Below, piece after piece: positions 1 to 54,538 of a stretch of 64,000 nt of DNA. This DNA is from Hypoxylon rubiginosum (taxonomy: Eukaryota > Ascomycota > Sordariomycetes > Xylariales > Hypoxylaceae). The notes beneath the pieces were generated by a model. The model worked only from the letters and a program-made list of their open reading frames with translations. It searched no databases and was not told where the DNA came from. A program made the position numbers and the translations under genes. Each line of letters begins with the position of its first letter. Position 1 is the stretch's first letter. The stretch lies in contig CADCXA010000024.1 of the NCBI GenBank assembly GCA_902806565.1, positions 310,001 to 374,000 on the forward strand. The letters run 5' to 3'.

Positions 1-507
1 GATTTTAAAATTTTATAATTTTTATTTATAAAAATATTTAAGTTTAAAATTATTTTATATAAAGTTTTATATAAAATAATTTTAAACTTTAATACTTTTA
101 TAAATAAAATCGATAAAATTATAAAGTAAATTTTAAAACCTTTTTTTAGTTATAATACCTAGTTATATATATAAAATTATATAAAACTTTTTATATTACT
201 TTATAATTATATTATTATTTTAAGTTTATATTAAATTTATATTTATATAAATATTTTTTTATATTATATTTATTTTTTTTTTAATAAAAATAATAATCTG
301 GGAATTTTTAAAAGTTTAAAAATATATTAAACGGTTAAATATTTATTTAATATTAATAAGTAAAATATATAGTTTTTAAATCCGTTAAATTATTAATAAA
401 TAAAAAACTAATAAATTTAATATAAAAAACCATTTAAATAAAAATCCTTATAATTAAATAATAATTTTAATTTTATTAATTTAACGTTTATTAAATTATT
501 TAATTAT
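1..507. other. AT-saturated RIP-type DNA left of the retroelement
   Basis: This stretch is almost entirely A and T, with no open reading frame of useful length on either strand. It is continuous in composition with the RIP-hit retrotransposon to its right and runs off the window edge, so it is probably another repeat or a neighbouring element mutated in the same way. I cannot assign a family to it. Confidence 0.7.
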
Positions 508-696
508 TGTTTTTAAAGTTAAAATACTATAAAAAATATTATTTATATTTTAAATATTTATATGGTTTATATATTTAAAGTAATTTATATTTTAAAAAGT
601 TTTTAACTCGGTTTTACACTTAGTTTAAATTCTTAGAAACTAAATTTTCTATATTATTTTTTTATATTTATATTATTTTTTAAGTAAATATAATAA
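508..696 (+). repeat. 5' LTR, heavily RIP-mutated
   Basis: Positions 545-696 align without gaps to 6461-6612 at a fixed offset of 5916. By eye every difference is a transition, and nearly all have A or T here where the right copy has G or C. That is the signature of RIP on both strands. The segment 508-544 is placed by a weak TGTTTTTA match to the start of the right copy and includes an indel, so the left boundary is uncertain. Confidence 0.82.
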
Positions 697-3600
697 ATTA
701 TACACTTTTTATAATATTTTCTTTATATATTTTTAACAATTATTTTATATTAAAATATATATTAAACTTAAAATAATTAATTTTATTTAAATTATAGTAA
801 TTTTACATTAAATTAACAGTTTATTATTCCTTTTAATAGTAAAATTTTTAACTTTAAAAAATTTATAATAAAAATTTAATAAAATATTAATTTATAAATA
901 TTAATATATTAAAATTTATATATAAAATTATAAATTAACAATTTAAATAAATAATATTAAACTAATTAAAAAATTATAAATTTAATTTACTATATAATTT
1001 AATATAAGTTATTAACTTTTTTTTTATTAAATTTAAGATTTTTAATTTATTATATTTTTTTATTTTAACTATTAAAAATTATTGTTAAAATTTTTAACTT
1101 TTAAAAAAAAAAAAAGTATCTTTTTTTTTTATATTTATTAAATTAAACTTATAAATAATTAACTTATTTAATTACCTAAAAATTCTTATTTATATTAAGT
1201 TATTTATTAAGTTTAAAATACTAATTAAAAGCTTTTAATTTAAATACTTTTTATATATTAAAATAACATTTATTTTATAAATATATAACCTTATATTTTA
1301 TATAAAAAACTAATAAAACAATAAATAATAATTTTTATAAAATTTAACCGTAAATTTTAATAAATTATTTTAATTTCTAATAATTTTCTTTAAGTTAATT
1401 AAGTAATATATATATATATAAAATTTCTTAAAAAAAAATATTTAAAAAACACCTTAAAAATATATATTAAACATTAATATTTAAAATAAATATAATATTA
1501 TAATAATAAATATTATATAATTTATAAAATATAATATAAATAAATATTATAATATTCTTAAAAAAACTAAAAATAATATATTTTTTTATTTATTTTATTA
1601 TATTTATTATTTATTATAGTTAATTTAAATTTCACTTTTTTTTTTTTTTTTTTATTAAAAAACAAATCCAATTTTAAAAAATAAAATTATTTACTTTATA
1701 TTATTATAATTTATATAAATTATATAGGTTTTATTAAAAACATTAAAATAATACCTAAAAATAACATTAAAAAAAAAACTTAAAAATAATATTAAACTTA
1801 TTATATATAAGTTTTTTAAATATTTTTAATAAATCTTTATATTTAAACCTTACTTAAAACTATAAGTTATAAAAAAAAAAAAAAAAATCTTTATATTTTT
1901 TATAAATAAGTTATAAAATTTATATTAAAAAAATTTAAGTAATTAATTTCTTAGTTATATTATAAAATTTTTTATATTAAATTTACTAATAAAATTCCTT
2001 TTAAAAAGTTTTAAATAAACTTTATTTTTATAATTAATCACCTTAAAAAATTTAATATTAAAATCTTATTTAAATTTAAATTTCTTATTATAATTAATAT
2101 TATAAAAAGTTAATATTTTAATTAATATAAATTTTTTAAATAAAATTTTATTAAAAAACTTTTAATTTAAACTTTATTTTAAAATAAACTTATTTAATAT
2201 TATAATAATAAGGAAATTTACATTAAAACTTTTTATAATAATATTATTATTAAATTTAATAAAAGTAAAAACTTAAATAATAATTTTATTTTAATTAACA
2301 TTAAACCTAAAATTATTAATTATAAAGTTAAAAACTATATTTATAAATATTTTAAGAATTTCCTTTAATGTTTTTATTATAAAAAACATTATAAAAAAAA
2401 CAGCGATAAATATTAAATTATTTATTTAAAGTTTAAGTTTAAATAAAAAAAAAATATTAAAAATAATAATAACAAGCCTTTAAAATCTATTAAAATATTT
2501 AAAAGTTTTTTAATAATTAACATTAAAGTTTTTATATATTTACCACCACTTTAAATTTATTTTATAAATTTTTACGTTTTAAATAATTTTTTTAACTTTA
2601 ATATAAAATTAATTACGTTTATTTTTAATATTAATAATATTTATATAACTTTATAATTTAACATTTATACTTTTATAATTATTAATTTTAATTTACATTA
2701 TTATAATTTTTTATATAATATTTATATTTTTAATTTAAATTATTTAATATATTTAATTAATAATATTAAGTAACTTATAAAATACTATTTATTTTTATAA
2801 CTTAAAAAAATATTTAAAATAACCGGCGATAATATTAAAATCCTTAAAATTAATATTATATTAATAAAAATCTATTAAAATAATAACTTAATTATTATTT
2901 TTTAATATAAAACTTAATTTTATTTTTCTTTTTTAATTAATCTAATTAATAATAATTAACTTAAAGAAAAAAAAATTATTTATAATAATATAAATAATAT
3001 ATTTATCTTTAAAAGTAATTTTAAAAAAAAGTTTATTAAAATAAATTAATATTATAATTTTAAAATTTTTAAACTAATAAAAATTTTTAATTTTATATAT
3101 TAATTTTATATTATATATATAATAATTAACATTAAACTTATATATAAAAAATTTATATATATAAGTTTTAATAAAATTAAAAAAGTTTATTATTATTATA
3201 ATTTTTATTTAAAAATTTTAATATAATTTTCTTTTTATAATATTTATATATAATTAAAAATTAAATATTAAATATATTATTAATTATTAATTTTAATATA
3301 TTATTTATTATAAATTATTTTTATAGATATTTTCTTTTATAATATTAAAAAACTTATTAATTTTAAATATATAGTTATTTTTACTAATAGTTATATAAAC
3401 TATAAATAACTTAAATTTAAACGTAAGAAAAATTAAATCTTTATAATTATTAAAAAATTTATCGCTAAAATTAAACTATAAACTAGATTAAAAATTTAAA
3501 TTATATATATTAATAATAATAAAAAGTTCCTTAATAAAAATAATATTAAAAATAAATATTTAAATTATAGTATTTATTTTAAAACCATTATACTTAATAT

Positions 3601-6403
3601 ATTAAAATAAAATAGTTATATAAAAAAATTTAATTTTTTTATAATTACTTTTTTTAAATTAACTTTAATTAATTTTTAGTTATTTATTTTTTTTTAATTT
3701 TACGTTAAAAAAATAGTTATTATAATAATTAATTTACTTTTTATTAAAATAAATAAAATATAAAAATCTTTATATAATAAATTTTATAAAATATTAAACC
3801 TTTATAAAAAAACTTATTAAAACCATTTATTATATTTTTATATTTTTAATATTATTATTTAAATTTATAATAAAAAAGTTTTTAAAAATATAAAATATAC
3901 TTTTTACGTTTATAAAAGCTTTATAATCGGTTATATTAACTGTAAATTTAAAATCTATAAAATTTAAATCTTTTTATTTTATAAAATTATTAAAATAAAA
4001 AACATTATTTTTAATAAATAATTAAAATATTAAAGTAATTTAAAAAAAGATATTAAATATAACATTATTTTTAAAAAACCTAACTATAAAAAAATTAGTT
4101 AATTTTAAATTAATATTCGTAATTATAATATTTTTTTAAAACCTTATTTACTTATAAATAAATTTAAATTATTAAAAATATTAAATAAATTAATTTAATA
4201 ATTTAATAATTTTTTATTATAATATAAAAATAACTATTAAAATTTAATTTATTTTACACTTTTATTTAAATATATAATTAATATATTTTAATTAAATATA
4301 TTTAAAACCTTTACTTATTAAATAATTAAAAAATAATTATTTAAATTAACACCTAAAGTTTTTCCATTTAATTTAAATAAAAAAAATTTTAATAATATTT
4401 TTAAAAATTTTATATTTAAAAGCTTTTTAAAATTAAACGTAAAAAATAAATATACTTTTTCTTAATAAGCCTTAATTAATTAATTAAAATTAATATAAAA
4501 TATTTCTTTTTTTATTATTAAAAATTTTAATAAAAATATTAACTTAATTAAAAATAACACCGATTTAATTAAATAATTTTATTATTTAACTTATTAAAAA
4601 TTTAAAATTAATTATAATATTATTTAAATATTTTATAATTTAATTAAAATGATTTTATTTACTTTTATTAATGTAACTTTTTTAATAATTAACGAAAAAT
4701 AAAAGAAAATTAAAACCTTTATTTTAACCTTTTTTTAAATTACTTTTATTTTAATATTTCTTTTTATAAAATCTTTTAAAAAAACTTAAAGTAACTTTAA
4801 ACTTTAAAAAGTTTAAAAACTGGTTTTTAACGTTTAAATTTAAAACCTAATTAATTATAAAACCTTTAAATTAATTAATTTATTTTTTAAAATTAAAATC
4901 TTATTTATTAAATAAATATTAAATTAAAAGTTTAATTTTAATAATAAATAAAAATATAATTAAACTTAATTTATTATTTATAATAATTATTAATTTAAAA
5001 ATTATTAAATTATATAAAATATATATATAATTATAATAAGTTTAATATTAATTAAAATATTCCTTATTATTATAACTATTAAAAATATTAATTATAAATA
5101 ATATAATATTAAAATTATATTTTTTTATAACTTTATTTTTAATAATATTATTATTTATTATCGCTAGTTATTTAAATATTAAAATAAAATTAAATAAGTT
5201 TAAAAATTTTTATAAACCTTATATAATTTTCATGGTTTATTTTTATAATAATTTAAGATTTTAATTAAAAAAATAATTAAATTTAGTTTTTATAATATAA
5301 TAATAAAATATTATTTATTTAAACATTTATATATAAATGTTTTTATTTTTATTTATATTAATAATTTATTTATTATTAATAAATATTATTAAAATATTAT
5401 TAATATAATAAATACTTTTAAAAAAGTTTTTAAATTAAAAGTTATAAATAATATAGTTAAATTTTTTAATTTTTATATTTAACGTAATAAAAATATTTAT
5501 TAAATTTTTATTAATTAAATTATATTTATTAAAAAGATTTTTAATAAATTTAACATTAAATCACTTAAAAATATAAAAACTTTTTAATATTTTAACATTA
5601 TTATTTTTATTATTTAAAATAAAGTAATTAATATTAATAATAAAAAATATTAAATAAAAATTAATTTTTTTAATTAATTAGTTATTAATATTTATTTTAA
5701 TATTATAAAAATAATTATAACATTTTATAAAATAAATATAAAACTTAATTAATATTATTTTAATTTAATAAAATATTTTTAATAATATTTTATTTTAACT
5801 AAAAATTTTAATATTATTTTTAATAAAAAATATTTTATTATAAATATATATTTTATAATCTAAATAAATATAACTTTTATTAATAATTTAAATTTTTAAT
5901 AATTTATAAAAACTTATATTATTACACTTATTAATAATTTAATATATTAATAGTTAAAAAAATAAATACTTATTATATTTAATAATATAAAAATAAAATT
6001 TATTAATTTTATTTTAATTAATTTTATAACTATATAAATTAATAAATTATTAAAAAAATTAAGCTATAAATAACCTAAACCTTTTATTATATATATTAAT
6101 TTAATTAATATTAAAATTATTATTTTTAACTTTTTTAAAATAACTTATATTTATTATTTTAATATATAATTTAAATAAATTATTAATTGTTATTAATATA
6201 ATAATTTTAAATTATAATATATTAATATAATTAATATAATTATAAATAAATTAATAAAACCACTTTTTAAAAAAAATTATTATAAGTTTATATATTAATT
6301 AAAAATAAGTTCTTACCTTTAATAATTTAATAAATTAAAAAAAAATTATAAATAATCTAGTTTAAACCATTAAATTAGCCTTATTTATAAGTTAAAAAAA
6401 GGA

Positions 6404-6751: not shown

Positions 6752-6965
6752 ATGATTAGTAGGCTTAATCGGGTGCAAAACACTAGGCTCAAGCCAAATA
6801 CAGGACAAGAGGCCGATTTTAAAGTGGAGGATAACCCTTTTGCGTTCAGTCCTGGACAGCTCGCAAAATGCAAAGGCACAAGAGCTTGTCGGCGTTCTAT
6901 TCCCTTGGAAGTCTACGTGGCTTGGAAAAGGGACTGTCCAGAGACTACTCCTCTGCCTTCCAAAC
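6752..6965 (+). pseudogene. Frameshifted N-terminal fragment of a PMCA-type Ca2+-ATPase
   Basis: The frame from 6752 carries EADFKVEDNPFAFSPGQLAK, which matches the conserved N-terminus of fungal vacuolar and plasma-membrane P-type calcium ATPases just before the first membrane helices. After about 6870 the homology continues in another frame, with KSLSAFYSLGSLRGLEKGL encoded from 6880. The gap between the two halves is 11 nt where the family normally has 12, so a single-base deletion is the simplest explanation. No ATPase core, membrane segments or P-type DKTG motif follow, so this is a truncated relic beside the retroelement. The GTAAGT after 7013 could suggest a splice site, but nothing recognisable lies downstream. 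Confidence 0.6.
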
Positions 6966-7154
6966 TTGATATCACTGCCATGTACACCACGCACGTCGAT
7001 CAAATTCTTACTAGGTAAGTCTTGAGGGGACAAGCGAACTTCAAATCCAGCGCAATAATGGAATCGTGGATTTAACTATAGGATAAAACTATAAACCCAG
7101 ACACGCATCCTGACTATGACTCTTCAGAACGCTCACACTTCCTAGATGATTCTC

Positions 7155-7397
7155 TTAATAATCGGGGTAAATGACTTTTGCATCCTCGTCGGAGCTGGGG
7201 ACGGTTGCTGCGCGGCGGTAGTCGGGGTAGATGACTTTTGCGTCTTCGTCAGAGTTGGAGACGGCACGGCCTGAACAATGAATATTAGTTGGAAGGTTAC
7301 GTATGAAGGATATGAGAATCAACGTGCCGCTGTTAATAGGCGCGGGAACGCACATGGCGCAAGTAGTGAGGATGGCGAGAGAGAGGATAAACCGCAT
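7155..7397 (-). CDS. Dikaritin-type RiPP precursor peptide (secreted, two core repeats)
   Basis: This encodes 80 residues. A signal peptide (about residues 1-18: a basic start, then a run of Leu, Ile and Ala ending CVPAP) is followed by a short leader. Two copies of SDEDAKVIYPDY follow, at residues 49-60 and 69-80. An RR pair, a Kex2-type site, directly follows the first copy, and the second copy ends at the stop codon. The two 36-nt blocks differ at six positions, all synonymous. This layout (signal peptide, acidic spacer, Tyr-containing core, dibasic site, repeat) is that of precursors such as UstA of the ustiloxin pathway. The three UstYa homologues, methyltransferase and P450 next door support the call. 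VIYPDY is my core proposal; the true ends are unknown. I chose the inner ATG because it starts the signal peptide. A CTAAT..TTCAG acceptor-like pair lies near 7272-7290, but no in-phase donor sits at a normal distance, so I left the gene unspliced. Confidence 0.72.
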   Translation of the reverse strand: MRFILSLAILTTCAMCVPAPINSGTLILISFIRNLPTNIHCSGRAVSNSDEDAKVIYPDYRRAATVPSSDEDAKVIYPDY

Positions 7398-8162
7398 CGT
7401 GGATTGAGGTATAAGAGTACAAATAGACTTTATAATATCTAGATAAAATGTACGAGTGCTATTAAAGCAGGCAAATAATGGCATGCACGTAGTTATAGCA
7501 AATAGAAAAGAAACCAGAACCGTCCACGGATTCGTCCCCCATCTACCCTTTAAGGCCGCTTTACGCCCCTACAATATCTCATCTACCAATACATGCATGT
7601 TCTGGTCGAGTCTGCCATCCTCATCACACACCTTCCTATACAACCCCGCCGAAAGATATCATTTTGCACCTCGCAGCGGCACAGAAACATGCATAGCAGC
7701 GTGGTGAAGGAGAGCCAACGCATCGCAACGCAACGTTACCATCCAAGGGCGTGAGACGCCATCTTCGCCCTGCTTGTACGAGGACACACATAAAATCCGC
7801 ATAAAGGCAAGGATCAATATGAAAGGACACCCAGAACCGGCTTCCGGCAGCCGTGTCTTAACCCAGCGTCTATAGCGTCCGCTTGAAACCTCCCCGGACG
7901 CCTTCCAAGATGGCGGTGTACGGGGCGGGGAGGTTGTGTAATGTGGAAAGTCTATTATCACCTTAATGTAACACCGCAGCCAAATTGAGAAAGATGAGGC
8001 TCGCGATAATAGACGAGTAAATTAATAAACTTAGACCAAATCCTTGGACGTGATCCCTGCTCGGTAATACCCCTTTTAGGTAGGTGATCCAATGGTGTTA
8101 CGGGTATGCAGTCATCACCGCTTTGCTGACCTGACCACTCGCCCACACCCCTTCACATCTTG
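7398..8162. other. Intergenic, precursor to first UstYa gene
   Basis: This holds the promoter side of the precursor and the 3' side of the first UstYa gene. Only short overlapping frames without family resemblance are present. I see no repeat or RNA gene. Confidence 0.5.
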
Positions 8163-9176
8163 TCACTCACTCACCTCCCCCTCCCCCCAGCGTCCCCCTT
8201 GGTCATCCAACCCCTTCCAATACCGCGGCAAGGAATCCATGTCCCTTGGTCTCTCCTCGAACCAATCCTGGGTATACCCAAAGTACTTCCGCATAGGGCC
8301 AAGCATCGGGCTGCCCCGCGGACAGTATCTGAAGCGCTCGATAACGGCACCGACGCCCTGCGTCTCGTTAACGTACGCAAAGCACGCCGTGTTCTCGTCG
8401 GCCCATTCCGTCAGGCGGTCCCAGCTGCGGCACATGCGCGTCTGGCCGAGCCCCGTGGTGATGTTGGACGTCGTTGACGTGTAGAAGGGCGTGTCGTCGG
8501 CTTCGCAGATGATGTTTTGCATCAGGTGGTCCATGCAGTGCACCAGGTGTATGTACGAGTCTAGCTGCGGGCGGCCGTAGTTGTAAAGAACGATGGCGCG
8601 GCGGACCTTGCGCTGAGAGGTCGAGTTTAGCAAACTTCGTATAAGGCGAGGTGGGAGGGAGGGAGGGAGAACATGTTTACCATGCAGTGTAGGCTGTGGT
8701 GCGCGTTCAGCAGATAGATCTGGCGGCCTTCGTCCCAGAAGAAAGGTGCCGACTCTGGTAGGTTGTGTCTATCTGCCCATTCTTTGTCTAGGCTGATCTC
8801 GCCCGCGCTCGAGTCCATGCTTTCCCATGCGATTGCTCGCTGCTCTTCAGTGGTGCTCCCTAGGCCAAAGGGAGACTGCGAGTTGTAGTTGGTTGGGACA
8901 TCTCGAGGTAGGTGAGCTATAGGTAAAAGTCAGTATCTTGACAGACAGAGAATATCTGGAAGGGGGTCTACCGTATGGTGAGAAATCCTGCCGTGCGTCT
9001 ATTTTTTGCCAACCATTTACTACAAGGCCAATGTTCAATATTATCGAGACCATGAGCAGAGCAATGACAAACTTCAATCTTTGAGATGATCCATGTTTGG
9101 GTTGTGAAAATAGCTCTGCCTCATTGTTCAGCGGTTCAATCTCTTCGGGCGAACACGCCTCACTTTGGTCCTTCAT
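8163..9176 (-). CDS. UstYa-family (DUF3328) oxidase 1
   Basis: This encodes 296 residues in three exons (9176-8972, 8916-8681, 8612-8163); introns of 55 and 68 nt have clean GT/AG ends and agree in phase. A short cytosolic N-terminus is followed by one membrane helix (about residues 35-55). The lumenal domain carries the paired family motifs HSLHC (142-146) and HLVHC (169-173), the latter followed by MDHLMQNIICEAD. In this family the HxxHC histidines are thought to bind copper and drive oxidative macrocyclisation of RiPP cores through Tyr. The gene is co-directional with the precursor and the second UstYa gene. A G-rich polypurine tract lies just upstream of the start, and the second intron contains GGGA repeats. 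The family call is firm; the exact bond it makes is inferred from relatives. Confidence 0.88.
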
Positions 9177-9516
9177 GGTAAGACTGTGCGCAAGACCAGA
9201 CTGGGGGCCGGGGGAGGGGGGAGGGGGAGAAGGGGAAAAGAAAAGGGGAAAAGGAAAAAGGCAGCATCGACAGACGAAAGACCGAAATTAAATCTCCCAA
9301 TATGGTACAAGTCTCTGGATAATTCTTAGTACAGGCGGCCAGTCAGGCCGGGGTCGGTTTGAGTGCGCGGGTGTGTAAGTCTGCATATCCCCAGAGTACA
9401 CGCCACCCCATCGATATCGGTCGTCACAGCCGTTGCTGGCAAGGTTTAAACATTCAGGCTACCTAAATTCTTATTTACTTTGTTATCTATATATTTTGCT
9501 ACACGCCGCTTGCTAT
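9177..9516. promoter_or_regulatory. Upstream region of UstYa 1 with G-rich polypurine tract
   Basis: About 9205-9261 on the + strand is an almost unbroken purine run with several G4-G6 blocks, immediately before the start codon of the minus-strand UstYa gene, so the transcribed strand is C-rich. It could form triplex or quadruplex structure or act as a pyrimidine-rich promoter or 5' UTR element. No function is shown. The rest holds nothing recognisable. Confidence 0.4.
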
Positions 9517-10461
9517 CTACATGCCGTCTGGCGCTAGGTTTGGATTTGTCGACACTGCCATATCGGCGTCGCTGACCCTACGCGATTCTACCTTTTCCAT
9601 CAGGCCCTTCCAGTCCACACAAACATGTTCGGGAGACTCTAACTTGAGCATGGGTTCTCGTTTGTCCGCTGCCCAGTGGAAGGTCATTAGTGACGTGTCT
9701 GCACGACACATCAACGCCTGCCGGATCAGATCCAGGCAATGATCTGGAGAGTAAAATTAGCCCGTCCTGGGGAGCGAGCAGTGACAACTCTATTGTACTC
9801 ACCAATATGCAGGAGCCAGTGTGGTGTCTCCTCAGGGCCGACTTCTGGATGATAATGGTCACGGTAGATCCACTGGCGGAGATATTTCTAGAGGATGTTG
9901 GTGATAACGCCTAAGTTGGGGGAGCGATGGTCGGGCAGTAGCTACCTACTACGCAGTGCAACTGGTGACTCACGTCCATCCAGACTAAAGAGCCCTGCCC
10001 GCTGGGCAGCTGAACCGAAGTTTGGTTCGAGGACGCAAGTTCTCTGTCAGATGCTCGGAGGTTGACGTGATCGAGCAATTTCGCCCATGCTCGATCGATG
10101 TCTTTGCTGGGCGGACCTGCGTATGGGCTCTCTTCAGAGAGAACAAAACGCTGCCAGCGAAGTGCAAGAGGCTCACCGCTCAAGGCTAGAATGCTCGATT
10201 AGAAAATATCGAAAATGCAGAGAGTGAAGAATGCTCACTTAGTGTGTTCAGGCGTGGAATACTACTGTGCAATGGGTATGCAAACAGAACGATTGCGGTA
10301 AAGCAGACAAAGAGAATGAAGAAAATCGTGTGCAAGAGTAGAGTCCGCCGGGGCCGATGCTTGCACGAGCTCGGATCATCGTCGTCGTGATGCTGCAGAA
10401 ATTGCTCGTTCTCTTCGTTGTCGCTGCCATCCATCAGAAAATAATTGATGCACCTGGCCAT
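9517..10461 (-). CDS. UstYa-family (DUF3328) oxidase 2
   Basis: This encodes 256 residues in four exons (10461-10239, 10185-9950, 9887-9803, 9743-9517); the three introns are 53, 62 and 59 nt and the phases close. An acidic N-terminus with DDDD is followed by a membrane helix (about 41-62). The lumenal domain has ESPYAG, then HQLHC (148-152), YRDHYHPE (161-168) and HIDHC (180-184) with LDLIRQALMCRAD. This is the textbook UstYa/UstYb motif series and the most canonical of the three copies. It is divergent from UstYa 3 across a 312-bp promoter. It probably acts in the secretory pathway on the peptide cut from the neighbouring precursor; that role is inferred from the family and the cluster. Confidence 0.9.
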
Positions 10462-10773
10462 GTTGAGTGGTGATATGCCGAATCTTTAGTTTGCCTTTGC
10501 TCAGCGCGGGATCCCTCATCATTCCCCTCCCACCCCCATCATCGACCGGTGACCACCAACATGCCTTACATATATTACCTACATTTGTACCTCATACAAG
10601 GTATGTATGTAGGACAGCTTGGGCCCTAACCGTCGTGCGAGCCGCTCCTTCGGCTAGCATCAACAATGGCGGATGATACTTATACCCAGGGTTTTACATC
10701 TATTATGTATTAACAACCGTCCATTGCGAGAGACACAGACTCCTCGACGCATTCACAACCTTCGTTCCCGAAA
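10462..10773. promoter_or_regulatory. Bidirectional promoter between UstYa 2 and UstYa 3
   Basis: This short divergent intergenic region should hold control sites for both genes. It contains a perfect inverted pair AGCCG-N6-CGGCT at 10640-10655 (a CCG-N6-CGG everted site), of the kind bound by Zn2Cys6 regulators. Whether it is used is unknown. No cluster regulator is visible within the window's RiPP segment, so control may be by a distant factor. Confidence 0.3.
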
Positions 10774-11676
10774 ATGAACTTACTTGCTTGGCTTGCTCCC
10801 AAAGGAGACGTTTACAACCTCTTGCCCGGCGACAATGTCGGTAAAGGCTCGTCCACGCAGACTTCAACTAGATACTCGTTCCGAGGCTCGTTTCTCAAGA
10901 CGGCTCTAGTTGGCTTGCTTGTACTTTCCAGTTTTTTTGCAGGCAGGCTTTCGATGAGTGTGCCAAGCCCTGAAAGAAACAAGGTGTTCGGACGTGAGTC
11001 TGACCAAGACACTTTACCTTGCCTTACCTACCGAGCCCAGAGTGTTGACATAAAACTCCCTAGTCGAGACAAAAGACCAGTTGTTCAAGTACAACCGCAC
11101 TTTTGGAGAGACACCATCCAATGCAACCGATGCTGCATGGGGGTCGTTATTCCCTCAACATGGAGGATTTTTTGTACACCCTGAATTGGCTCCGAAACGT
11201 TCCGCCTTTTCTGTGTTCCATCAGCTGCATTGCCTGGTAGGCTTGAGTTCACTTGGCGCCAACAACATAACACAGCTGACGCTACGTAGGACGAGCTGCG
11301 GCATGGATTCTACGTGCTCCACGATCAAGTCATAGCATACTCAGAAACGATCGGCAGTCGTCAGACAAGGAGTCAGAGCGACTGGGCAGAGCAGGGGAAG
11401 CGGGCTCTGCAGGAGCACTCGCTGGGTCACATCCGCCACTGCATCGACTTGTTACGGCAGAGCCTGATGTGTAATGCTGACCTGACAATAGAGCTGAAGA
11501 ACGAGGAGTTGGGGGGAGTGACCGGATTTGGCACGGTACATCGCTGCGTTGACTGGCCGGGCCTGTTGGAATGGATCCGGCCGTACGAGGGAACAAATGC
11601 TTCACCTATTCCCCAGGAACATGACCACATAGGTCGAGGAGAGGTCTTGTCCAAACCTGTTCCGCTCAACAAGTAG
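10774..11676 (+). CDS. UstYa-family (DUF3328) oxidase 3
   Basis: This encodes 259 residues in three exons (10774-10993, 11064-11236, 11290-11676) with introns of 70 and 53 nt. It has one N-terminal membrane helix (about 40-60). The lumenal part carries HGGFFVHPEL, HQLHC (126-130) and HIRHC (178-182) with IDLLRQSLMCNAD. This is a third paralogue, so the pathway has enough UstYa-type enzymes for more than one cross-link or oxidation. About 115 bp separate its stop from the methyltransferase start on the same strand, which suggests co-regulation. The family is certain from the motifs; the specific reaction is not. Confidence 0.9.
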
Positions 11677-11790
11677 CATACTTCACTCGGTAGGTAACTA
11701 GTATGTAGCAGTACAGAATCATATTTCAATAGGGACAGCACATTGCAGCACATTACAGAATACTACACTCCTGTCCTATGCAAGATCAGA

Positions 11791-13222
11791 ATGGCAACAT
11801 CCCAAGTAATTGACGCCGTAGAAGTATCTCAACTAGAACGGCTGGCCCAAGACATCGCGTCCAGGACGCAGGAGTTCACGGCAGTGCTGCGCAGAAACGG
11901 CTGCGCACTGCCGTCGCACGACCCGGACACTCCGAGGAACGATACCCTCCCGCTGGAAGGGACGATTTTGCAAAGCACATTGATGGAGCTCACGACGGAG
12001 CTACAGGCTCTTGTCCAGGGCCCAAGATTGCATATGCACAACCAGATCCTGGCGGTGAGCAGCCCCTTTCTTTGCCAGCGGGCAGCTGTAACGTAACGGT
12101 TGATAAAACGATAGCTGACGACGCTTAAGCATGTCAACCTGGTCAATTTCCATGCCATTTACAGCTTCAGACTCCCGGGCGTCGTTCCCGCGGAGGGCAG
12201 CATCAGTTACGCAGAGCTGGCCGGAAAGGTTCAAGCGAGCGAGGATGTGGTTCGCCGCATTGCACGATATGCCATCACAAAGCACATCTTCCGAGAGGTC
12301 GACGGCGGCGGCAGGCTCGCACACTCGGCCACGTCCAAGATGCTTGCCGAATCGCCTATGATGATGGAATGGATTGGAATGGTCTGCGAAGAGATGTGGC
12401 CTGCCGCAACGCAGGTGGTTCCAGCCCTAGTAAAGTGGCCCAGGTCGCAGGAGCCGCAACACTCGGTAAGTTGGCACGATGTATTGAATCTAGGGGAGCT
12501 CGCGGCGGCTCACAAAGAAACTGTAGGGGTTCGCCCTCGCGCATGGGCTGGAGACGCACGTCTTCGACATGCTGGTGGACCAGCCCGAGCGGGCGGCGCG
12601 CTTCGCCAACGCCATGGTCTACTTCAACTCCAACGCGGACCTTGCGCCGCACCACATATGCGATGCTTTCGACTGGGAATCCGTCTCGCAGGTCGTCGAC
12701 ATTGGCGGGTCGGCGGGCTCCACCGCGGTGGCTCTCGCGACACGCCTGCCGCAAGTCAGCATCGTCATCCAAGATCAAGCGGTCCTAGAGGATCAGGCGC
12801 GACGGTCGATCCCGCCCGAGCTGGCAGACCGCGTCTCCTTCGTCGCACACGACTTCTTCCAAGACCAGCCCGTGCGCGACGCGGACGTCTACCACTTCCG
12901 CTGGATCTTCCACGACTGGCCGGACCGGTACTGCCTGAAGCTCCTGCGGGCGCTGGTGCCGGCGCTGAAACCGGGCGCCAGGGTCGTCGTGTCGGACTAC
13001 GTCGTGCCCGAGTCCGGGACGACATTACGGTACAAGGAGGGACTCGTACGGGGCTTTGACCTGGCCATGATGGAATTGTTCAACGCCCGCGAGAGGGAGC
13101 AGCGGGACTGGCAGAGGTTGTTTGATGAAGCGGATTCCCGGTTCAGGTTCGAAGGCATCAGGACCGTGCCTGGCGCCGATCTGGCCTTCATTTCAGCCAC
13201 TTGGCAGCCGTCAGATATGTAG
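11791..13222 (+). CDS. SAM-dependent O-methyltransferase (COMT-like)
   Basis: This encodes 436 residues in three exons (11791-12054, 12115-12465, 12527-13222); all introns are phase 0 and 60-61 nt. It has the usual fungal O-methyltransferase plan: a helical N-terminal and winged-helix region with SFRLPGVVP, then a Rossmann domain with the SAM loop DIGGSAGS (Asp263). RWIFHDWPD follows, with His334 at the catalytic-base position, then LKPGARVVVSDYV. In this cluster the likely acceptor is a Tyr phenol, an Asp carboxylate or the N-terminus of the modified peptide. Phomopsin-type clusters also contain methyltransferases. The substrate is inferred. The first acceptor could be GATAG at 12114 (used) or a later AAG; the former keeps more conserved sequence. 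Confidence 0.87.
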
Positions 13223-13679
13223 CTCGGTGAGTTTACGAGCCTCGCGAGATCGAATTAGGATATTTTTCCTAATTCATAGAAAATATGAAATCGAATGAGA
13301 CTAGTTCTATCAATGAGGTATACTAATTGATAGATATTATAAGAATTATGAATATGTATAGAATTCTATGAAATTATCTTTGCGAGTCCATCATTTCGCG
13401 ACATATAATTAGATTTTTTCGTAACTAAAGCGGCTGAGCCGCCTCACTAATCTAGTAGCTTGGGCGCATGTGACGCTGTGTTACAGTGTGTTACAGCGCT
13501 ATTCTAGCAAACACAGGCGCATCAGGTGGTGCGCACGGGCCATTACGAGGTGGTCTACTTCCCTACTTCCAGTCCCAATCCCTTAGAAAATCACCTACAA
13601 AGGAGTCATCACCCTTCCCCCTCTCTAGGATGGAAGCACACTCGCCATCTTACATCTTCCCAACCATACCAAAACCACC
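13223..13679. other. AT-rich intergenic with small hairpins
   Basis: This region contains two perfect short inverted repeats: GAATTAGGA with TCCTAATTC (13252-13275), about 30 nt after the methyltransferase stop, and CTATCAAT with ATTGATAG (13307-13333). The AT-rich part ends near 13430, followed by the P450 promoter. The first hairpin could sit in the 3' UTR. The region may be a degraded small element; no terminal repeats were seen. Confidence 0.45.
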
Positions 13680-15308
13680 ATGACTGCCGTGTCGCTGCTG
13701 GCGCTGCTGGCGTCTTTTGTCGCCGCTTTTGCCGCCTATCGCCTGTATCTAAACTACACACTGCGACTCAAGGCCCAACAGCATGGATGCCTGCCCGCAG
13801 CCCGCTACAAGCATAAGGACCCCGTATTCGGTCTGGATATCTTCCTACGAACCGGAGATGCTATCTCCAAGAACCAATTCCTGGTCGAGCACCAGCGGCG
13901 ATACGATACATATGGCCATACGTTCGAAAGTCTGAACTTCGGTTCGCATGGCATATCCTCTATCCACCCAGAAAACCTACGGGCGGTCTTCTCTAAAAAT
14001 GCTGCAGACTGGGGCGTTCAGCCTCTGCGGCTACACAATATGAGCCCATTCTGCGGCAAGGGATTCATTACGACTGACGGCTCTGACTGGAAGGTCTCCC
14101 ACGACCTACTCAAGCCCGGCTTCCACAGGTCCAATATTTCCGATTTTGGTCCCCTTGAAGAGCATCTCAATATCCTACTAGGACAGATCCCAAAGGATGG
14201 CTCTAAGTTTGATTTACAGCCATATCTCTTAAAACTGGTTTGTGTTGTGAATCCCCGCCCACGCTCCTGGCGCACTAACGTATGTGCACCAGTATCTTGA
14301 CTTGAATACGCTCTTTCTATTCGGAGAGTCTATCGGAATGCTTTCCGGCACGCCTCCATCACATGCAAAAGGCTTTTTGGATGCATTCCAGGCCGGCTTC
14401 AATGGCTGCGGAATACGCATCGCCCTGGGACCTCTGAGCTTCTTGATGCCAAAGGGTTCCTGGCTCAAGGCATGCGACAAGGTTCATAAATTCGCCGATA
14501 TATATGTTGATAGAGCTATCGAGTACCGTAACAAAGTCAACTCGGTCGGAAATAGCCAAGACAAAATAAAGCGACGCACTCTACTTTTCAACATGGCACA
14601 AGCGACGGCTGATAGGACCGTTCTACGGAACCAGGTAGTGCAGGCCATGATGGCAGCAACCGAGACAACCGCTTCTCTGATCAGCCATGTTATCCGGAAC
14701 TTGGCCAGCAATCCTACTATAGCTGCCCAAGTGCGAGCTGAAGTTCTGGCCGTGGGTGACAAGCCGCTGGATTTCGACCAGTTACCGCGGATCAAGTCCC
14801 TACAACATGTTATCACTGAAAGTATGGCTGCTAATATTTGGCTCTATATTGAAAGTTATCGCTAACGTGATGACTAGCCCTCCGTCTGTACCCTGTATTT
14901 CCGCAGAATAATCGCGTTGCTTTGAAAGATACAATTTTACCTACCGGAGGAGGCTTAGATGGCACCGCTCCAGTGTTCGCGCCAGCTGGCACTCTATTCG
15001 ATACTTGCTTCGCTACGCTCCACCGCGATCCGAAAATTTGGGGTCCCAATGCTAATGAGTTTTGTCCCTCCCGCTGGGAAAATGATTATAGCCCTCCCCC
15101 ATTTACATTCATGCCGTTTGGAGCTGGGCCTCGACAGTGCTTGGCACAGCAAAAGGCGACTATGGAGGTCTCGTATATAGTATCGCGAATATTGCAAGAG
15201 TTTAGCGGAGTCAAGAGCGAAGACGAGAAACCCTATCAGGCACAGGTGGCTCTAACGGCAAAGAGCGCTCACGGGTGTCCTGTATCGCTCACCCCAGCCA
15301 CAGGATAA
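13680..15308 (+). CDS. Cytochrome P450 monooxygenase, CYP52-like
   Basis: This encodes 505 residues in three exons (13680-14237, 14293-14821, 14878-15308), with introns of 55 and 56 nt. An N-terminal membrane anchor (about residues 3-21) is present. The I-helix region reads AATETTASLISH in place of the usual AGxxTT. The ExxR pair is Glu362 to Arg365, split by the second intron, and the heme-binding loop is FGAGPRQC with Cys450. The overall look (FDLQP, ETLRLYPVFPQNNR, PFGAGPRQCLAQQ) is that of CYP52-type hydroxylases. At the end of the RiPP gene run it probably hydroxylates or oxidises the cyclised peptide, as P450s do in ustiloxin-like pathways. A primary role on fatty acids is the alternative. 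Confidence 0.88.
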
Positions 15309-48302: not shown

Positions 48303-51274
48303 GTTGGATAGTAGTATGTGTGGTTTAGAGGTTTGATATGTTTGGCGTTATTGGTTTATTGGATACTGATGTGGTTTCACAAGGTGATACTCTCTGGATA
48401 CAAAGGTGTGGGATGTCAAGAGGAAGTGGATAGGATAAACGCAAGATGTTGGGAGATGGAGGGTGAGTTCTCTTTAAGTAGGATCTGAGTATCTATACTA
48501 GTAAGTAGGTATCTATCAGACCACGCGACCTTTCGATTCAAACGGCGGGCATGATGTCTCCTAAAGGAGATAAGAGCAATAGCTATGTAACTTGCCCTAT
48601 CTGCTACGGCGCTACTGCATATTCCCATTGTCTTGACGCGGACTGATTGATCGGCGAGGCAGCTTCCTACCCACCTAACGATCGGGGAAAGTCCACTAGG
48701 AAGAAGGGCATCCTTGATGACTTCACCAATAAGGTAGGACATCGGGATGATCTAGTGCATATTCCGTCGTCCGAGCCAGTACGGATTTATGTATCTCGCA
48801 CCTGTGTTATACATCGGTCGGCGACAATCTCTACCGCGTACACTATCAAAGAGACACGATGACAGGAGGTCGATCGGTAAGCGACGGTACTTCTGCGTCC
48901 GGAGGGTGGCAACGTCATAGCGAGGTATAGCTCTTATCCCTTGCCCGATAGGGGAAGATGTACACGCCGCGCCCTCGGGCTTCTCACCCAACGTCTTTCT
49001 TACCCCGCAAAGAAACGAAACAAGGAGATCGCAGAGGCTGATATGGTCGGTCGAATCGGATGGCCTCGATTGTCATGTCCCGCTGCCTTAATGAGTCGCA
49101 TGAGTATGACAACACTTGGGTCTAAGGGTCACTCTTTGTCCAAGAGATATCAGTTCAGTAATACAGCACTGTAAGGTGGATTCCTATGCTGTAGAAGATA
49201 TGAAATTAAATCGAATTGTATACAATGGTATATACAGTACACATCATACGAGACCAATGGAAATTCCAATCTCCTCATATTTATTTTAAAAGATTCCGTA
49301 GCTCAGTCCGATGCAATAGCATCGCTGAGTAAGGGACAATCGAGGTAAGACGTGTGGGGTCGATGATGTAACACGTTGATAGGGTCTAGACCGGTCCACC
49401 GACTACCGGTTGCACGACCCACTTTCCCCAGAAAATCCAGCCCGACGGTCTTCGCGCCTAGCCTAGGCTCCGATACCTTTGGTAATCACCGACGCTCTAG
49501 AGTACACGATGTACCTAGTAGATGTGAGGATTATAGAACGTAGCGAGACAAGTGGCACTATTAACAATCATTATATTGTGACTAATAGAGTCATGTATCA
49601 ACAAACTAGCTAGACTATCCTTCATGTAGCTCACAGCGAAGCTGCTTAGAACTAGGCTATCGAACCTCAAGCCTCGACTCCTTACACTGAGAAAGAGATC
49701 TTGCGACATGCGAGCTACTGGAAATACGTTAGCCAGTTGAATATAATTACCTAGTCTAATAACGGCAAGTATTTGAATAGCCTTTTCAGTTCTCCAAGGT
49801 GAATGGTATATATCTCGTCATGAAGAACTCTGACAGTATGTAGGAAGTATATCATCCGTAAGGCTCTCCATCAAAACAGAAAAAATAGACTAACCTTCAA
49901 CGTGAATCTCCTATACGCTAAGTTACGGAAATCTAGTATTACCTAGTGTCGCAGCCAAGTTAGCGATGTCGACAAGCGCATACAAATAGCAAAGCGTATG
50001 AAAAAGCTATCAGCCTACTTATATGTTAGCTTCCAACACTCCAATGGTTGACATAGGGATATGTCCATACCTCATTAAATCAGATTTTTTGGAATGTTCA
50101 TTTCCAAGCCCAGTGGACAGGATCAAACAGTGTGAATAATGTTCATCATATTGCGTCAGGAACCAAGTAGCTAAGAGAGAAAATAATACCTGTCGAGGTT
50201 CGTTAGCCATGTCCCAAAGCCTCGTTTTGAAGTAGCGTGTAGCTCGACAAGACACAATCAGCTGACGAATTCTCAACAAGAAATCCCCGTACACCTCCTC
50301 CCACAAGGGTTGTACAGCCTCGCTTTGAACGAGAAAAGGGACGAGGGTTCGTTTATGTCCGCCCGTTCGTTCAATATATCCTCACGTGAATGTCATGGAG
50401 TGCTTGCAGTGGAAATATGTACCTATTCAAGCCAGCGAGTTAGCGATGTATACCAGCATACATGATTCAACAGGAAGAGGAAAAGTTTGTGAGGTCAGAC
50501 AAGGCTGAAACTAAACAAATCTACATAATATATTCTGAATGAGGAATTCCCTAGGTTTGTCGGTTTCTTCATCACCCCTCGGCGGAAGTCCACCAGGATG
50601 TAAAATTAGGAGATAGTACATACCTTTTGTAGAATGTGAAGGCGTATCGAGCAACAGTCGGTGACACCGTCAACAGCGACCTATTCTAGTTCCAGTCAGC
50701 CTTCTATCGATCATGACAGCGATCTTGCAACCATATGCGTAAGGCGCTTGCTCAGTCTAATTTTAGACTATTATCCCCATTGCGTTGTAAGATTTGGATT
50801 GTTCAACTTTTTTTTCTTCGTCACAGCAAAGCGAGACGCGGGAGTAGCAGAAGATAAGGCTGTAACTCACATTGCGGATTGAAAAAGTGTTCGGTGAATA
50901 CCAATAAAGGTGTTGAAGGAAAGAAACGAAGCTTGAAGACTGGGAATCTAAGGGCTTCAATGTGCAGAAAAGAGAAATCGTTTGGGGAGGAGAGAAAGTT
51001 TTATGGACGCGAAGAAAATAAAAATTGCTTAGTGGAGACCTCAAAAATTTAGGGCCACTTCGGAAATTTCCAACTAAAAGCTCCGGCTTCTTACCTAATG
51101 AAAAGTCCCAAAGTGGCGAGTGCTGCGCCACAAACGCTTTACATAAGCAAATCTTATCAGTTTAAGGGATTCGTCATTGCCCAATCCATCCTCTCCATCT
51201 TCCCTCCAACAGATCACAACTCTCTCCTCTTCGCCCCGTCCGCCGCATATAGCGACGAACAAAAGTGAAGAAAC
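48303..51274. other. Gene-poor DNA with one compound hairpin
   Basis: No gene supported; frames such as 48416-48742 (minus) start with ATG but lack features. A compound hairpin at 49302-49329 pairs CTCAG with CTGAG around CGATGC-AATA-GCATCG. The last 300 bp are the promoter of the next gene. Confidence 0.4.
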
Positions 51275-52660
51275 ATGGTCGCCCCTCTAGGTGGCATATG
51301 GGCCCCCGCGGCACTGCGGGTGGTCCGTAGCGCCGCTTACAAGGCGAGCAAGCTGATCCGGGCGAAGCTCGCCGACGCCGCCCGCCCCGTCAACACCGCT
51401 CTCGAGCCCGTCCTCGTCCGCAGCACGCACCACCCGCGCCAGCCCGTCCACCCCTCCGCCTTCCTGCGCCAGCAGCAGAGCCGCCGGTGGCACTCCACCA
51501 CGAGCAAGCGCGCGTCCGCGTCCGCGTCCACGACGTACCAGAACATCCACGCCGCGGTCCGCCGCTTCATGAGCACCGGCCGCCTCGACACCGCCTCCGC
51601 CTCCGCCCGCCTCGACCGCGCCAAGTTCCTCAACACCAAGACGGGCCGCGCCGTCGCCCAGCTCACGGGCCGCGCCCCCTTCGCGAGCGCCCTGCGGCCG
51701 AACCTCACCGGGGGCGCCCTGCCTCGCACCGCCGGCGGCTACGGGCTCGGGTCCGGGCGCGTCGGCGGGGCCCGGTACTTCTCGCACGCGCCCGCGGCGC
51801 AGGCCCAGGTCGTGCAGAACGTGTCGGCCGCCGTGCGCGCGTTCTGGGTGTCCGGGCAGAAGGCGCAGTTCGACGGGCTCAGCGCCCGCGGCGAGCGCAA
51901 GTACCGCGCCGTCTCGGCGCTGCAGGACGAGACCGCGCGCAAGATGGCGGCCGCGTCCCGCGTCGCCCCGGGCGCCTACATCGACTTCCGCCTGAGCCCG
52001 ACCGTCACGGCCCTGAGCCCCCTCGCGGCCGCGTTCCCCTACCCGTCCGCCGCCGGCTTCAAGGCCGTCCCCGCCCTCGACGCCGCGACCCTCAACACCG
52101 ACGGCTTCCTCGACGTGCTGTCCGTGGACTTCGCCCGCGCCCTCAAGGAATTGACCGCGACCCTGACCGACATCAAGAAGCTCTCCTCGCTGGGCGACCT
52201 CCCTATCCAGCTCGAGAAGGGGAACGTGATTCGAGTCCGTTTCCCAGGCGTCGATGCGGAGACCGTCGAGTCGCTGTGCGACGACCTCGGGCTGACGAGA
52301 GGCGTCGTCGCCGAGGACCCCGACTTCGAGGCCGAGACGGGCGTGCGGATGGCTCTCAAGTTCCCCTTCGCGCCCGGTGCTGAAAACGGCAGCGCCGCGC
52401 GGACCACGACCTCGCCCGGCGGCTCGCTGCGGTCCCAGGACAGCTTCTTCGCCACGGGGGAGGAGCTGTTCTACTACGAGGACGGGCTCAGCGAGGCGGA
52501 AGATAACCCCTGGCTGTCGCTTCCCGAGGAGACGGAAGAGGGCTACGAGAGCATGTCGCCGCCGATCAGCTCGGGCGAGCACTGCTCTGAGGACTTTGAG
52601 GGCCTCGAGGGCGTTTACAGGTTCCTGGAGGAGTGTGATCGCGCTCGTGGCGGATTTTGA
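51275..52660 (+). CDS. Mitochondrial-type conserved fungal protein (CKB2-like annotation)
   Basis: This single exon encodes 461 residues with strikingly high GC at third positions. The Arg/Ala/Ser-rich N-terminus (ALRVVRSAAYKASKLIRAKL, SRRWHSTTSKR) looks like a mitochondrial presequence. Further features are RRFMSTGR, GARYFSHAP and a conserved block with YIDFRLSP. A coiled-coil-like stretch follows (DFARALKELTATLTDIKKLSSLG), and the tail is acidic. I recall homologues annotated as casein kinase II beta 2 subunit in Sordariomycetes, but I see no CK2-beta zinc finger, so that name is doubtful. Antisense and +1 frames are long only because of the GC bias. Confidence 0.72.
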   Translation: MVAPLGGIWAPAALRVVRSAAYKASKLIRAKLADAARPVNTALEPVLVRSTHHPRQPVHPSAFLRQQQSRRWHSTTSKRASASASTTYQNIHAAVRRFMSTGRLDTASASARLDRAKFLNTKTGRAVAQLTGRAPFASALRPNLTGGALPRTAGGYGLGSGRVGGARYFSHAPAAQAQVVQNVSAAVRAFWVSGQKAQFDGLSARGERKYRAVSALQDETARKMAAASRVAPGAYIDFRLSPTVTALSPLAAAFPYPSAAGFKAVPALDAATLNTDGFLDVLSVDFARALKELTATLTDIKKLSSLGDLPIQLEKGNVIRVRFPGVDAETVESLCDDLGLTRGVVAEDPDFEAETGVRMALKFPFAPGAENGSAARTTTSPGGSLRSQDSFFATGEELFYYEDGLSEAEDNPWLSLPEETEEGYESMSPPISSGEHCSEDFEGLEGVYRFLEECDRARGGF

Positions 52661-53075
52661 GAGAGCGCACGCGCCACAGGAATGAATTGCAAAGGCGTAC
52701 GGTTGTTTTGGGGGAATACTTGTTTAGGATAGGGCACCACACTCATTGTATTTGGAAGCTGAAGGATTACATAGCCAGTGCGTCTACTAGTCGCACATGA
52801 AATTCCATATGTTTTATATATCATCTGTGCCACGTGTGCGAATTGAATAAGTGAAAAGGGTATCTGTCATTGATCTTGTAGAAAGAGTATAGAAAGCCAT
52901 CATTGGCATAATCTGATCAATGGATTTTTGTTCAGGATAAAAGAAAAAAGACGAGATCTCAAATTACCAGAGAACAGGCTTGAACTGACGTGTCGCTGAT
53001 CATCCTTCCCAGCCCATTGGAACATAGAAATCCCCATGAGGGATCCTCATAGATCGAGTCACCACAGTATGGACT
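52661..53075. other. Convergent intergenic
   Basis: This lies between two 3' ends. I see nothing in it except AT-leaning 3' UTR-like sequence. Confidence 0.4.
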
Positions 53076-54032
53076 TTATGCGTCAAATCTTGTTTTCCGC
53101 TTTCCAACGCTCTGCTTAGGCGCACTCCCTTGCGAAGAGCCTTGCTGTGCCGCACCCTGATCACTCCCACCAGCCGTAGCCGTAGCCGTACCCGAAGCCG
53201 AAGCGGCCACAAAATCTACCGGCGCCCCCTTCCCCCTGGCCCTAGCCTTCTCGATCTCGATCTGGCTCTGCCGGAGCTGCTCCCTGTACGCAGCCCTAGG
53301 GAACGCTTCCGGGTCCCAGACGTCGGCGGCGAGCGTGGTGCGGTACTGGTCGGCTGGGCTACCGAGCTCGACGAAGGCGAGCAGCTTGTCCATGAGGGCC
53401 GGGTTGCCCATGGACGGGTTCTGGGCGACCTTGGAGTTGAAGTGGACGCCCTGCTTCTTGAGCTCGAGGAAGCGCTCGAATTTGGCGCTCGTCGCCGGCG
53501 GCGGCGACCGGCCCGGCGGCGACGGCGGGATCGCCGTGTTGGGCAGCGGCGGGAGCGTCAGGTCCCGCAGGAGGGCGCGGGTCGCCGTGTAGGGCGACCT
53601 GGGCGGGAGCCCGGACCCGCTGCCGCCTTCTTCTTCGTCATCCATAGGTGCTTCTTCCAAGGGAGGGAAGCTAGGTCCAGCGGCTGGGGTTGGACCTATC
53701 TGGGGCCCGATGATGGCTGCTGGTTGCTCCGGCTCGACTTCCTTCTGTGACGAGGCATCGGGTTTTGCTGGGGCGCCTGTTCACTAGTTAGAAGAGACAT
53801 ATATCTACTCGAGTAGAAGAAGAAATAGCACGGCCTACTTACTTAGTTCTCGGTTCACGACGACGGTAGTATCTTGATTTTGTTTCAGTGACTGGCCTCA
53901 GTAGAATCAGTGCTGTCCAGTGCCTACCCGTGCGATGTCGTATTTTCATCTCATGTTCTCATTTCATACCTTTGGTTTTGGCTGTGGCGCAATCTCTTCG
54001 TCGCTACTCTCGTAGCTTACAAGGCCGGCCAT
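53076..54032 (-). CDS. HCNGP/SAP30BP-like transcription regulator
   Basis: This encodes 270 residues in three exons (54032-53970, 53891-53843, 53776-53076). The start MAGLVSYESSDEE is the signature opening of this family. The 49-nt middle exon (SLKQNQDTTVVVNREL) closes the phase. The HCNGP domain follows: KFERFLELKKQGVHFNSKV, NPSMGNPALMDKLLAF, DQYRTTLAADVWDPEAF, then a basic end KRKTRFDA. The human homologue binds SAP30 and has a role in transcription and splicing; the fungal role is little known. It would be nuclear. It is divergent from the proteasome gene across 506 bp. Confidence 0.85.
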
Positions 54033-54538
54033 CTTCCACTATGGGAGTGAAATGATGTTGGAGTTTTTTATGTATTTCAAGCAGAAGATATAAGATTCCT
54101 GATGATAATACAATTTTCGGGATTGGGTGAGTTGCTCGAATCAAAAAGTGAGTATTTGCTCGTCTATCAGGTAGGTTATATTGTATTGAAGGTATGTAAG
54201 TATCCAGTAGTATGTTAAGGTAATATGTGGGTCAACTTGCCATGCAAACACAGCTGGTGGCAGACTGGCAGACTGGCAGGGTACGTACCTCTACGATAGC
54301 CTGGGAAGGCAGAACTGACGCGCAGCTACAAGCTCCCAGTACAGCTTCCGTCCATCGTCAATCGGCCATCGGTCATCAGCCTTGCAACCATTTCTTAGCA
54401 AGTTACAACTCAATATTCACCAAACCGCCATCTACAACACCACAGCGGGACATCGGTACGACGATCTCTCTTCGAACCGATTTTACCTCAACCTTTCTCT
54501 AGCGAACTCTCATCCGTTCCGATCAGATATCAATCAAC
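54033..54538. promoter_or_regulatory. Divergent promoter, HCNGP gene and proteasome beta-7
   Basis: This region should drive both housekeeping genes. It contains CAGACTGGCAGACTGGCAGG tandem words near 54260 and no clear proteasome element (GGTGGCAAA) on inspection, although GGTGGCAGA occurs at 54255, one base off. Confidence 0.3.

Follow-up and report, generated by a model that had tools for sequence, protein, structure and literature searches.

The stretch of DNA analysed here, called the window, comprises 64,000 nucleotides of Hypoxylon rubiginosum (bases 310,001-374,000 of contig C24, from an assembly of 48.3 Mb in 70 contigs). Between 7.1 and 15.3 kb it holds six open genes, packed into about 8 kb, that probably form a cluster for a ribosomally synthesised and post-translationally modified peptide (RiPP). 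The first gene (7155..7397, minus strand) encodes a putative precursor of 80 residues, or 61 residues if a candidate intron is removed, with a signal-peptide-like N-terminus, two DEDAKVIYPDY repeats and one RR junction. Beside it lie three UstYa/DUF3328 oxidase genes, named UstYA (8163..9176, minus strand; three exons, 296 residues), UstYB (9517..10461, minus strand; four exons, 255 residues) and UstYC (10774..11676, plus strand; three exons, 259 residues), then an O-methyltransferase gene (11791..13222, plus strand; three exons, 436 residues) and a cytochrome P450 gene (13680..15308, plus strand; three exons, 505 residues). The starts of UstYB and UstYC lie head to head, 312 bases apart. Splice sites were picked from the sequence alone, and all five enzyme models gave open frames after splicing, with GT-AG introns of 53-70 nucleotides.

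The five enzyme assignments are supported by Pfam. UstYA, UstYB and UstYC score 66.9, 141.7 and 91.6 bits against the UstYa family (cut-off 25 bits), the O-methyltransferase scores 107.5 bits against Methyltransf_2 (PF00891) and the P450 scores 180.1 bits against p450; the precursor has no family match in Pfam. Each of the three oxidases has a hydrophobic N-terminal stretch and two HxxHC motifs (HSLHC and HLVHC in UstYA, HQLHC and HIDHC in UstYB, HQLHC and HIRHC in UstYC). Both the six-gene arrangement and the paired motifs had been described in an earlier, sequence-only reading of this DNA, and both hold. The His and Cys residues of these motifs are invariant or nearly so in 25 aligned UstYA sequences and 64 aligned UstYC-type sequences. 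Searches against solved structures gave no match for UstYB or for a UstYC-type profile. UstYA also has a conserved C-terminal stretch of about 75 residues (approximately 222-296) beyond its Pfam match, in which NETQ, a Val and a Cys are invariant in those of the 25 aligned sequences that reach it; no description of this stretch was met in the fungal RiPP literature examined.

The C-terminal part of the precursor reads RAVSN-SDEDAK-VIYPDY-RR-AATVPS-SDEDAK-VIYPDY. The first repeat (7218..7250; C24:317218-317250, minus strand) is followed by RR, and the second (7158..7190; C24:317158-317190, minus strand) forms the C-terminus. As 12-codon units the two repeats are identical at all but 6 of 36 bases, and every difference is synonymous; in simulation this outcome arose in 5 of 200,000 trials with six random substitutions and in 93 of 200,000 with six random transitions. 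Only one precursor gene with this repeat was found in the assembly. The protein search for further repeats that the sequence-only reading had suggested, which could detect only proteins of about 44-140 residues, was productive: relatives were found in Hypoxylon sp. NC1633 (four repeats), in Xylaria cubensis (three) and on a 3.3-kb contig (three). Over the four precursors, VIYPDY is unchanged in all 12 copies and DEDAK is present in 11 (DGDAK in the remaining one), the inter-repeat junction is RR in eight of eight cases, and the protein ends with its last repeat in four of four. The repeat is not a product of chance, because its differences are all synonymous and the same repeat occurs in the three relatives. 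With its hydrophobic N-terminus (the signal peptide being judged by hydropathy only), RR junction and repeats, the precursor has the predicted layout of a secreted protein processed by Kex2.

A 19-residue segment present in the other three precursors is absent from that of X. cubensis. The matching stretch of the window is 57 nucleotides long, in frame, and runs from GCACGT to TTCAG, so that the reading frame is kept with or without it. Because the X. cubensis protein lacks exactly this segment, the window precursor probably contains a 57-nucleotide in-frame GC-AG intron, whose removal would shorten the product from 80 to 61 residues. A GT-AG intron was rejected, as a hand count showed no GT donor of usual length that keeps the frame. 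The GC donor of this candidate intron, the presence of only two repeats against three to four in the relatives, and a GC content of 4-7% throughout the first 6 kb of the window would all agree with a decaying or silent relative of a working cluster, in which the machinery is intact and the precursor has shrunk against a degenerate AT-rich block. Such decay appears unlikely, since all six genes are open and the differences between the repeats, all synonymous, indicate that selection acted after the repeats diverged.

Relatives of the oxidases are widespread. For UstYA, 29 matches were obtained at E <= 1e-5, the closest being from Hypoxylaceae (Xylariales), namely Hypoxylon sp. NC1633 (88% identity), Annulohypoxylon sp. 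FPYF3050 (86%) and Hypoxylon texense (86%). Identity to named sequences of Xylariales, Seiridium, Stachybotrys and Pleosporales, some of them fragments, is 65-91%. In five Pleosporales, which belong to a different class, it is 65-85%, the two highest values coming from fragments; this degree of identity suggests that the fungi which make the product benefit from it. UstYA-like proteins were also observed in Alyxoria varia (Arthoniomycetes, 57%; P0142) and a Xanthomendoza (Lecanoromycetes, 44%; P0148), groups known as lichens.

Linkage in other fungi was judged from the organism and equal contig size, without reading their DNA. In Hypoxylon sp. NC1633, the precursor (P0001) and UstYA (P0124) are both on a contig of 309,210 bp, apparently the same one. 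UstYA and UstYC are found on equal-size contigs in seven species of Amphisphaeriales, Hypocreales and Pleosporales, i.e. Seiridium cardinale, Stachybotrys elegans, Lentithecium fluviatile, Bimuria novae-zelandiae, Melanomma pulvis-pyrius, Pleosporales sp. CAS-2024a (locus tags 004743 and 004741) and Trematosphaeria pertusa (where UstYC is a fragment of 51% identity). In Nemania sp. FL0916 the two are on contigs of different size. The UstYC search gave 163 matches, of which 120 were listed; nine of the matches listed have at least 57% identity (P0004-P0012), and six of these are on a contig equal in size to that of a UstYA match from the same organism, that of Nemania sp. FL0916 is not, and two have no UstYA from the same organism among the matches listed. 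UstYB is joined to UstYA in three Seiridium gene models (P0133, P0135 and P0136; two of S. cardinale and one of S. cupressi) that keep the order and orientation of the window; these fusions are probably annotation errors and are still evidence of adjacency.

In fungal RiPPs of this kind, Kex2 is described as cutting at dibasic sites and UstYa proteins as cyclising the peptide (PMC6514808, PMC9233826, PMC10512285). By its gene content, the locus is read here, with a probability of about 0.82, as a UstYa-dependent fungal RiPP cluster, or dikaritin cluster in the broad sense, whose product is very probably a small cyclic peptide released from the repeated precursor. The broad definition of dikaritins is given as a repeat precursor with a UstYa homologue (PMC10512285), and two HxxHC motifs in a DUF3328 protein are described as a criterion (PMC12048977); gene content places the window cluster among dikaritins so defined, with cyclisation predicted. 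Ding et al., according to PMC12048977, define dikaritins by five parts, namely a precursor with N-terminal leader and repeated core or recognition motifs, a tyrosinase, a methyltransferase, multiple DUF3328 proteins and a transporter or peptidase. The window supplies a precursor with leader and repeated motif, a methyltransferase of the Methyltransf_2 family and three DUF3328 proteins. Where the sequence-only reading saw the gene set of dikaritin pathways, the precursor, UstYa trio and methyltransferase stand; no tyrosinase match was found on C24, nor was an S41 peptidase match, and no transporter was found in a search for the major facilitator superfamily that scored only 9 of 493 candidates.

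Several observations weigh against this assignment. Tyrosinase (PF00264) has 24 matches in the genome and none on C24, and the genome search for S41 peptidases likewise gave no match on C24. The window precursor has two repeats, and one published survey required at least three. In X. cubensis the precursor is on a contig of 37,539 bp and UstYA on one of 144,459 bp, a split that may be an assembly break or a real separation. No UstYC of NC1633 or X. cubensis is among the 120 of 163 matches listed, and no precursor was found in the species having both UstYA and UstYC, within the 44-140-residue range of that search. Only in this window are the O-methyltransferase and P450 seen linked to the pathway. 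A shared promoter motif was also not found, as no 7-, 8- or 9-mer occurs in at least four of the five promoters, and the 6-mers that do so number five against 5.3 expected. The extent of the cluster is taken as 7.1-15.3 kb, which promoter motifs neither support nor limit.

The X. cubensis split would also fit a case in which the UstYa trio, methyltransferase and P450 act on a polyketide, on a non-ribosomal peptide or on a different precursor, with the repeat protein as an unrelated secreted neighbour; DUF3328 proteins are reported to act in polyketide and non-ribosomal peptide pathways as well (PMC12048977). Ketoacyl-synthase has 109 matches in the genome and the condensation domain 25, none of them on C24. 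A nearby polyketide or non-ribosomal peptide backbone was rejected on this ground, no backbone candidate other than the precursor having been found on the contig. In addition, the precursor and UstYA of NC1633 are apparently on one contig, and the precursor, whose repeats each contain two Tyr, is built as one would expect for a UstYa substrate. A different substrate is accordingly regarded as quite improbable.

Of 7,878 Kex2-processed repeat proteins in the survey of PMC7329392, 1,758 have a DUF3328 neighbour and most do not, and the peptide could in principle be secreted linear and unmodified, as a pheromone or signal, with no cross-linking. The three UstYa neighbours and the two Tyr in each repeat make this very unlikely. 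In the same survey, DUF3328 genes are reported to peak beside repeat-precursor genes, with DUF3328 neighbours given for only three pheromone or mating-factor precursors (PMC7329392).

For the cluster read as a dikaritin in the broad sense, the boundary of the core affects which product should be sought. In ustiloxin, each core is described as flanked by ED and KR (PMC6514808), and in a second repeat precursor of the same genome, on contig C18, the likely core starts right after ED. In the window precursor, AK comes after ED and before VIYPDY, and by analogy with this flanking rule the core could be AKVIYPDY or KVIYPDY as well as VIYPDY. Kex2 favours dibasic sites, so the lone K ahead of V gives little ground for a cut at that point. 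The core VIYPDY proposed in the sequence-only reading holds as an invariant unit, in 12 of 12 copies, and its boundary is tentative, as AKVIYPDY and KVIYPDY fit the repeat conservation equally well. The neutral linear masses are 768.3694 Da for VIYPDY, matching the 768.37 Da calculated earlier, 896.4644 Da for KVIYPDY and 967.5015 Da for AKVIYPDY; each ring or double bond would lower them by 2.0157 Da, each methyl would raise them by 14.0157 Da and each hydroxyl by 15.9949 Da.

Among known systems, asperipin-2a (aprA, aprY, aprT and aprR) is alike in its repeat precursor and UstYa-type oxidase, with no tyrosinase among the four genes given for it, and its core FYYTGY has Tyr at positions 3 and 6, as does VIYPDY (PMC6514808). 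It differs in its core, in its single UstYa, where the window cluster has three, and in that a reductase and a transporter take the place of the methyltransferase and P450. The enzyme genes of the window between 7.1 and 15.3 kb are the three UstYa, the O-methyltransferase and the P450; a short-chain dehydrogenase lies at 22.2-23.2 kb. Ustiloxin and phomopsin clusters are alike in signal peptide and repeats, dibasic junctions, several DUF3328 proteins and a methyltransferase, with the ED flank in ustiloxin; the window cluster differs from them in lacking a tyrosinase or S41 match on its contig, in its Methyltransf_2-family methyltransferase and in a core that does not start with Tyr. Epichloecyclins (gigA), likened by description, share an aliphatic residue before an internal Tyr and a Kex2-type precursor with few repeats, whereas their junctions are KR and those of the window precursor RR (PMC9233826, PMC6514808).

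A possible pathway can be outlined. The precursor would enter the endoplasmic reticulum, Kex2 would cut after RR and Kex1-type trimming would expose the C-terminal Tyr, and the acidic SDED part would be removed by peptidases encoded elsewhere. Membrane-anchored UstYa proteins would then oxidise the peptide, most likely forming at least one ring by joining a Tyr phenol to the beta-carbon of Val, Ile or the other Tyr; the other UstYa proteins might form a second ring, a double bond or a hydroxyl group, and the P450 and O-methyltransferase would then decorate the peptide. Because its Tyr positions 3 and 6 match, asperipin-2a is the best guide to the ring pattern, by analogy and not as proof. Its ether bonds are described as linking Tyr side chains to beta-carbons, and for its single UstYa homologue a closure of one ring after another has been proposed (PMC6514808). 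In phomopsin, double bonds are attributed to three of the five DUF3328 proteins (PMC10880069). Rings can thus not be counted from UstYa genes, and the more than one cross-link that the sequence-only reading took three copies to suggest does not follow from them.

The cluster is apparently undescribed, as had been proposed. The strings 'VIYPDY' and 'DEDAKVIY' are absent from the open-access papers searched and could still be in supplements (Table S2 of PMC7329392, Fig. S3 of PMC8403587); the single literature match to 'IYPDY' was a signal-detection paper. Because 838 types of repeat protein have already been catalogued (PMC7329392), a further one next to DUF3328 genes belongs to a known kind. 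The cluster goes beyond this in that its repeat is invariant and its UstYa cassette recurrent, and by the clade of UstYA. Five dikaritins were reported in a 2022 review (PMC10512285), against the 1,758 repeat precursors with DUF3328 genes (PMC7329392). The compact cluster, with its invariant repeat and five enzymes, would allow the oxidation performed by each UstYa to be read gene by gene. The chemistry of UstYa proteins has, to our knowledge, not yet been worked out.

It is also possible, as a tentative extension, that the tyrosinase-free UstYA-UstYB-UstYC cassette, with UstYA as a distinct, exceptionally conserved clade that has a C-terminal extension of its own, is ancient or horizontally spread machinery for one particular cyclic peptide and represents a separate subclass of fungal RiPPs. 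If so, the cassette would have been retained across Xylariales, Hypocreales and Pleosporales, while relatives of UstYA occur in Arthoniomycetes and Lecanoromycetes, and three homologous oxidases would act in turn, each step being defined, on a core whose third and sixth residues are Tyr.

The same genome contains what looks like a separate dikaritin locus of classical type on contig C18. The region C18:36001-76000 (approximately 36-77 kb) has matches to UstYa (several), to tyrosinase (as far as 77 kb) and to S41 peptidase (one), and a repeat precursor frame (61706-62014, minus strand) has likely cores that start with Tyr after ED, with Kex2 sites between them. This locus resembles the window cluster in its UstYa matches and its repeat precursor with Kex2 sites; it differs in its tyrosinase and S41 matches and in the Tyr-first likely core directly after ED. 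According to a survey of Hypoxylaceae, H. rubiginosum, H. pulicicidum and every Hypomontagnella species have RiPP clusters of ustiloxin-like type (PMC8403587); the survey possibly refers to the window cluster, the C18 locus or neither. Throughout the genome, 55 exon-level UstYa (PF11807) matches were counted by eye on about 18 contigs, and there may be several further UstYa-type clusters.

To the left, the precursor gene is adjoined by an AT-rich block (window 1-6400) that perhaps begins just left of the window. GC content rises to 27% in the kilobase at 6-7 kb, and the TpA/ApT ratio is 1.09-1.20 in the first 6 kb; the block looks like extreme repeat-induced mutation. An open fragment of 88 residues at 6752-7015 (plus strand) is 51-58% identical over 33-37 residues to segments of two long frames from other regions of the genome and has no Pfam match. 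It is probably a relic and presumably recalls the N-terminus of a fungal calcium ATPase. Just left of the block there is an open reading frame resembling trichothecene 3-O-acetyltransferase (C24:306917-308017), which may be part of the cluster or have no connection with it. In the 30 kb beyond the left side of the block, six of eight frames scanned match ordinary families, including acyltransferase-like and caspase-domain proteins, and a sugar-transporter match lies approximately 28 kb left of the precursor.

In a crude hydropathy scan right of 6400, three frames of the window have at least two hydrophobic stretches. One is the precursor frame; the other two are at 16.2-17.4 kb, and one of these has a match to fungal rhodopsin. 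On the right side, Pfam matches were obtained for 7 of 20 frames scanned (fungal-rhodopsin-like, RING, short-chain dehydrogenase, arrestin-like, Cdc6-like ATPase, MOSC/aminotransferase and SIS/glutamine-amidotransferase). Further right, long overlapping frames occur on both strands at 51269-52723 and 53040-55673, with no Pfam match in the four scanned, and a perfect 18-bp tandem repeat of 3.6 copies is located at 60208-60271.

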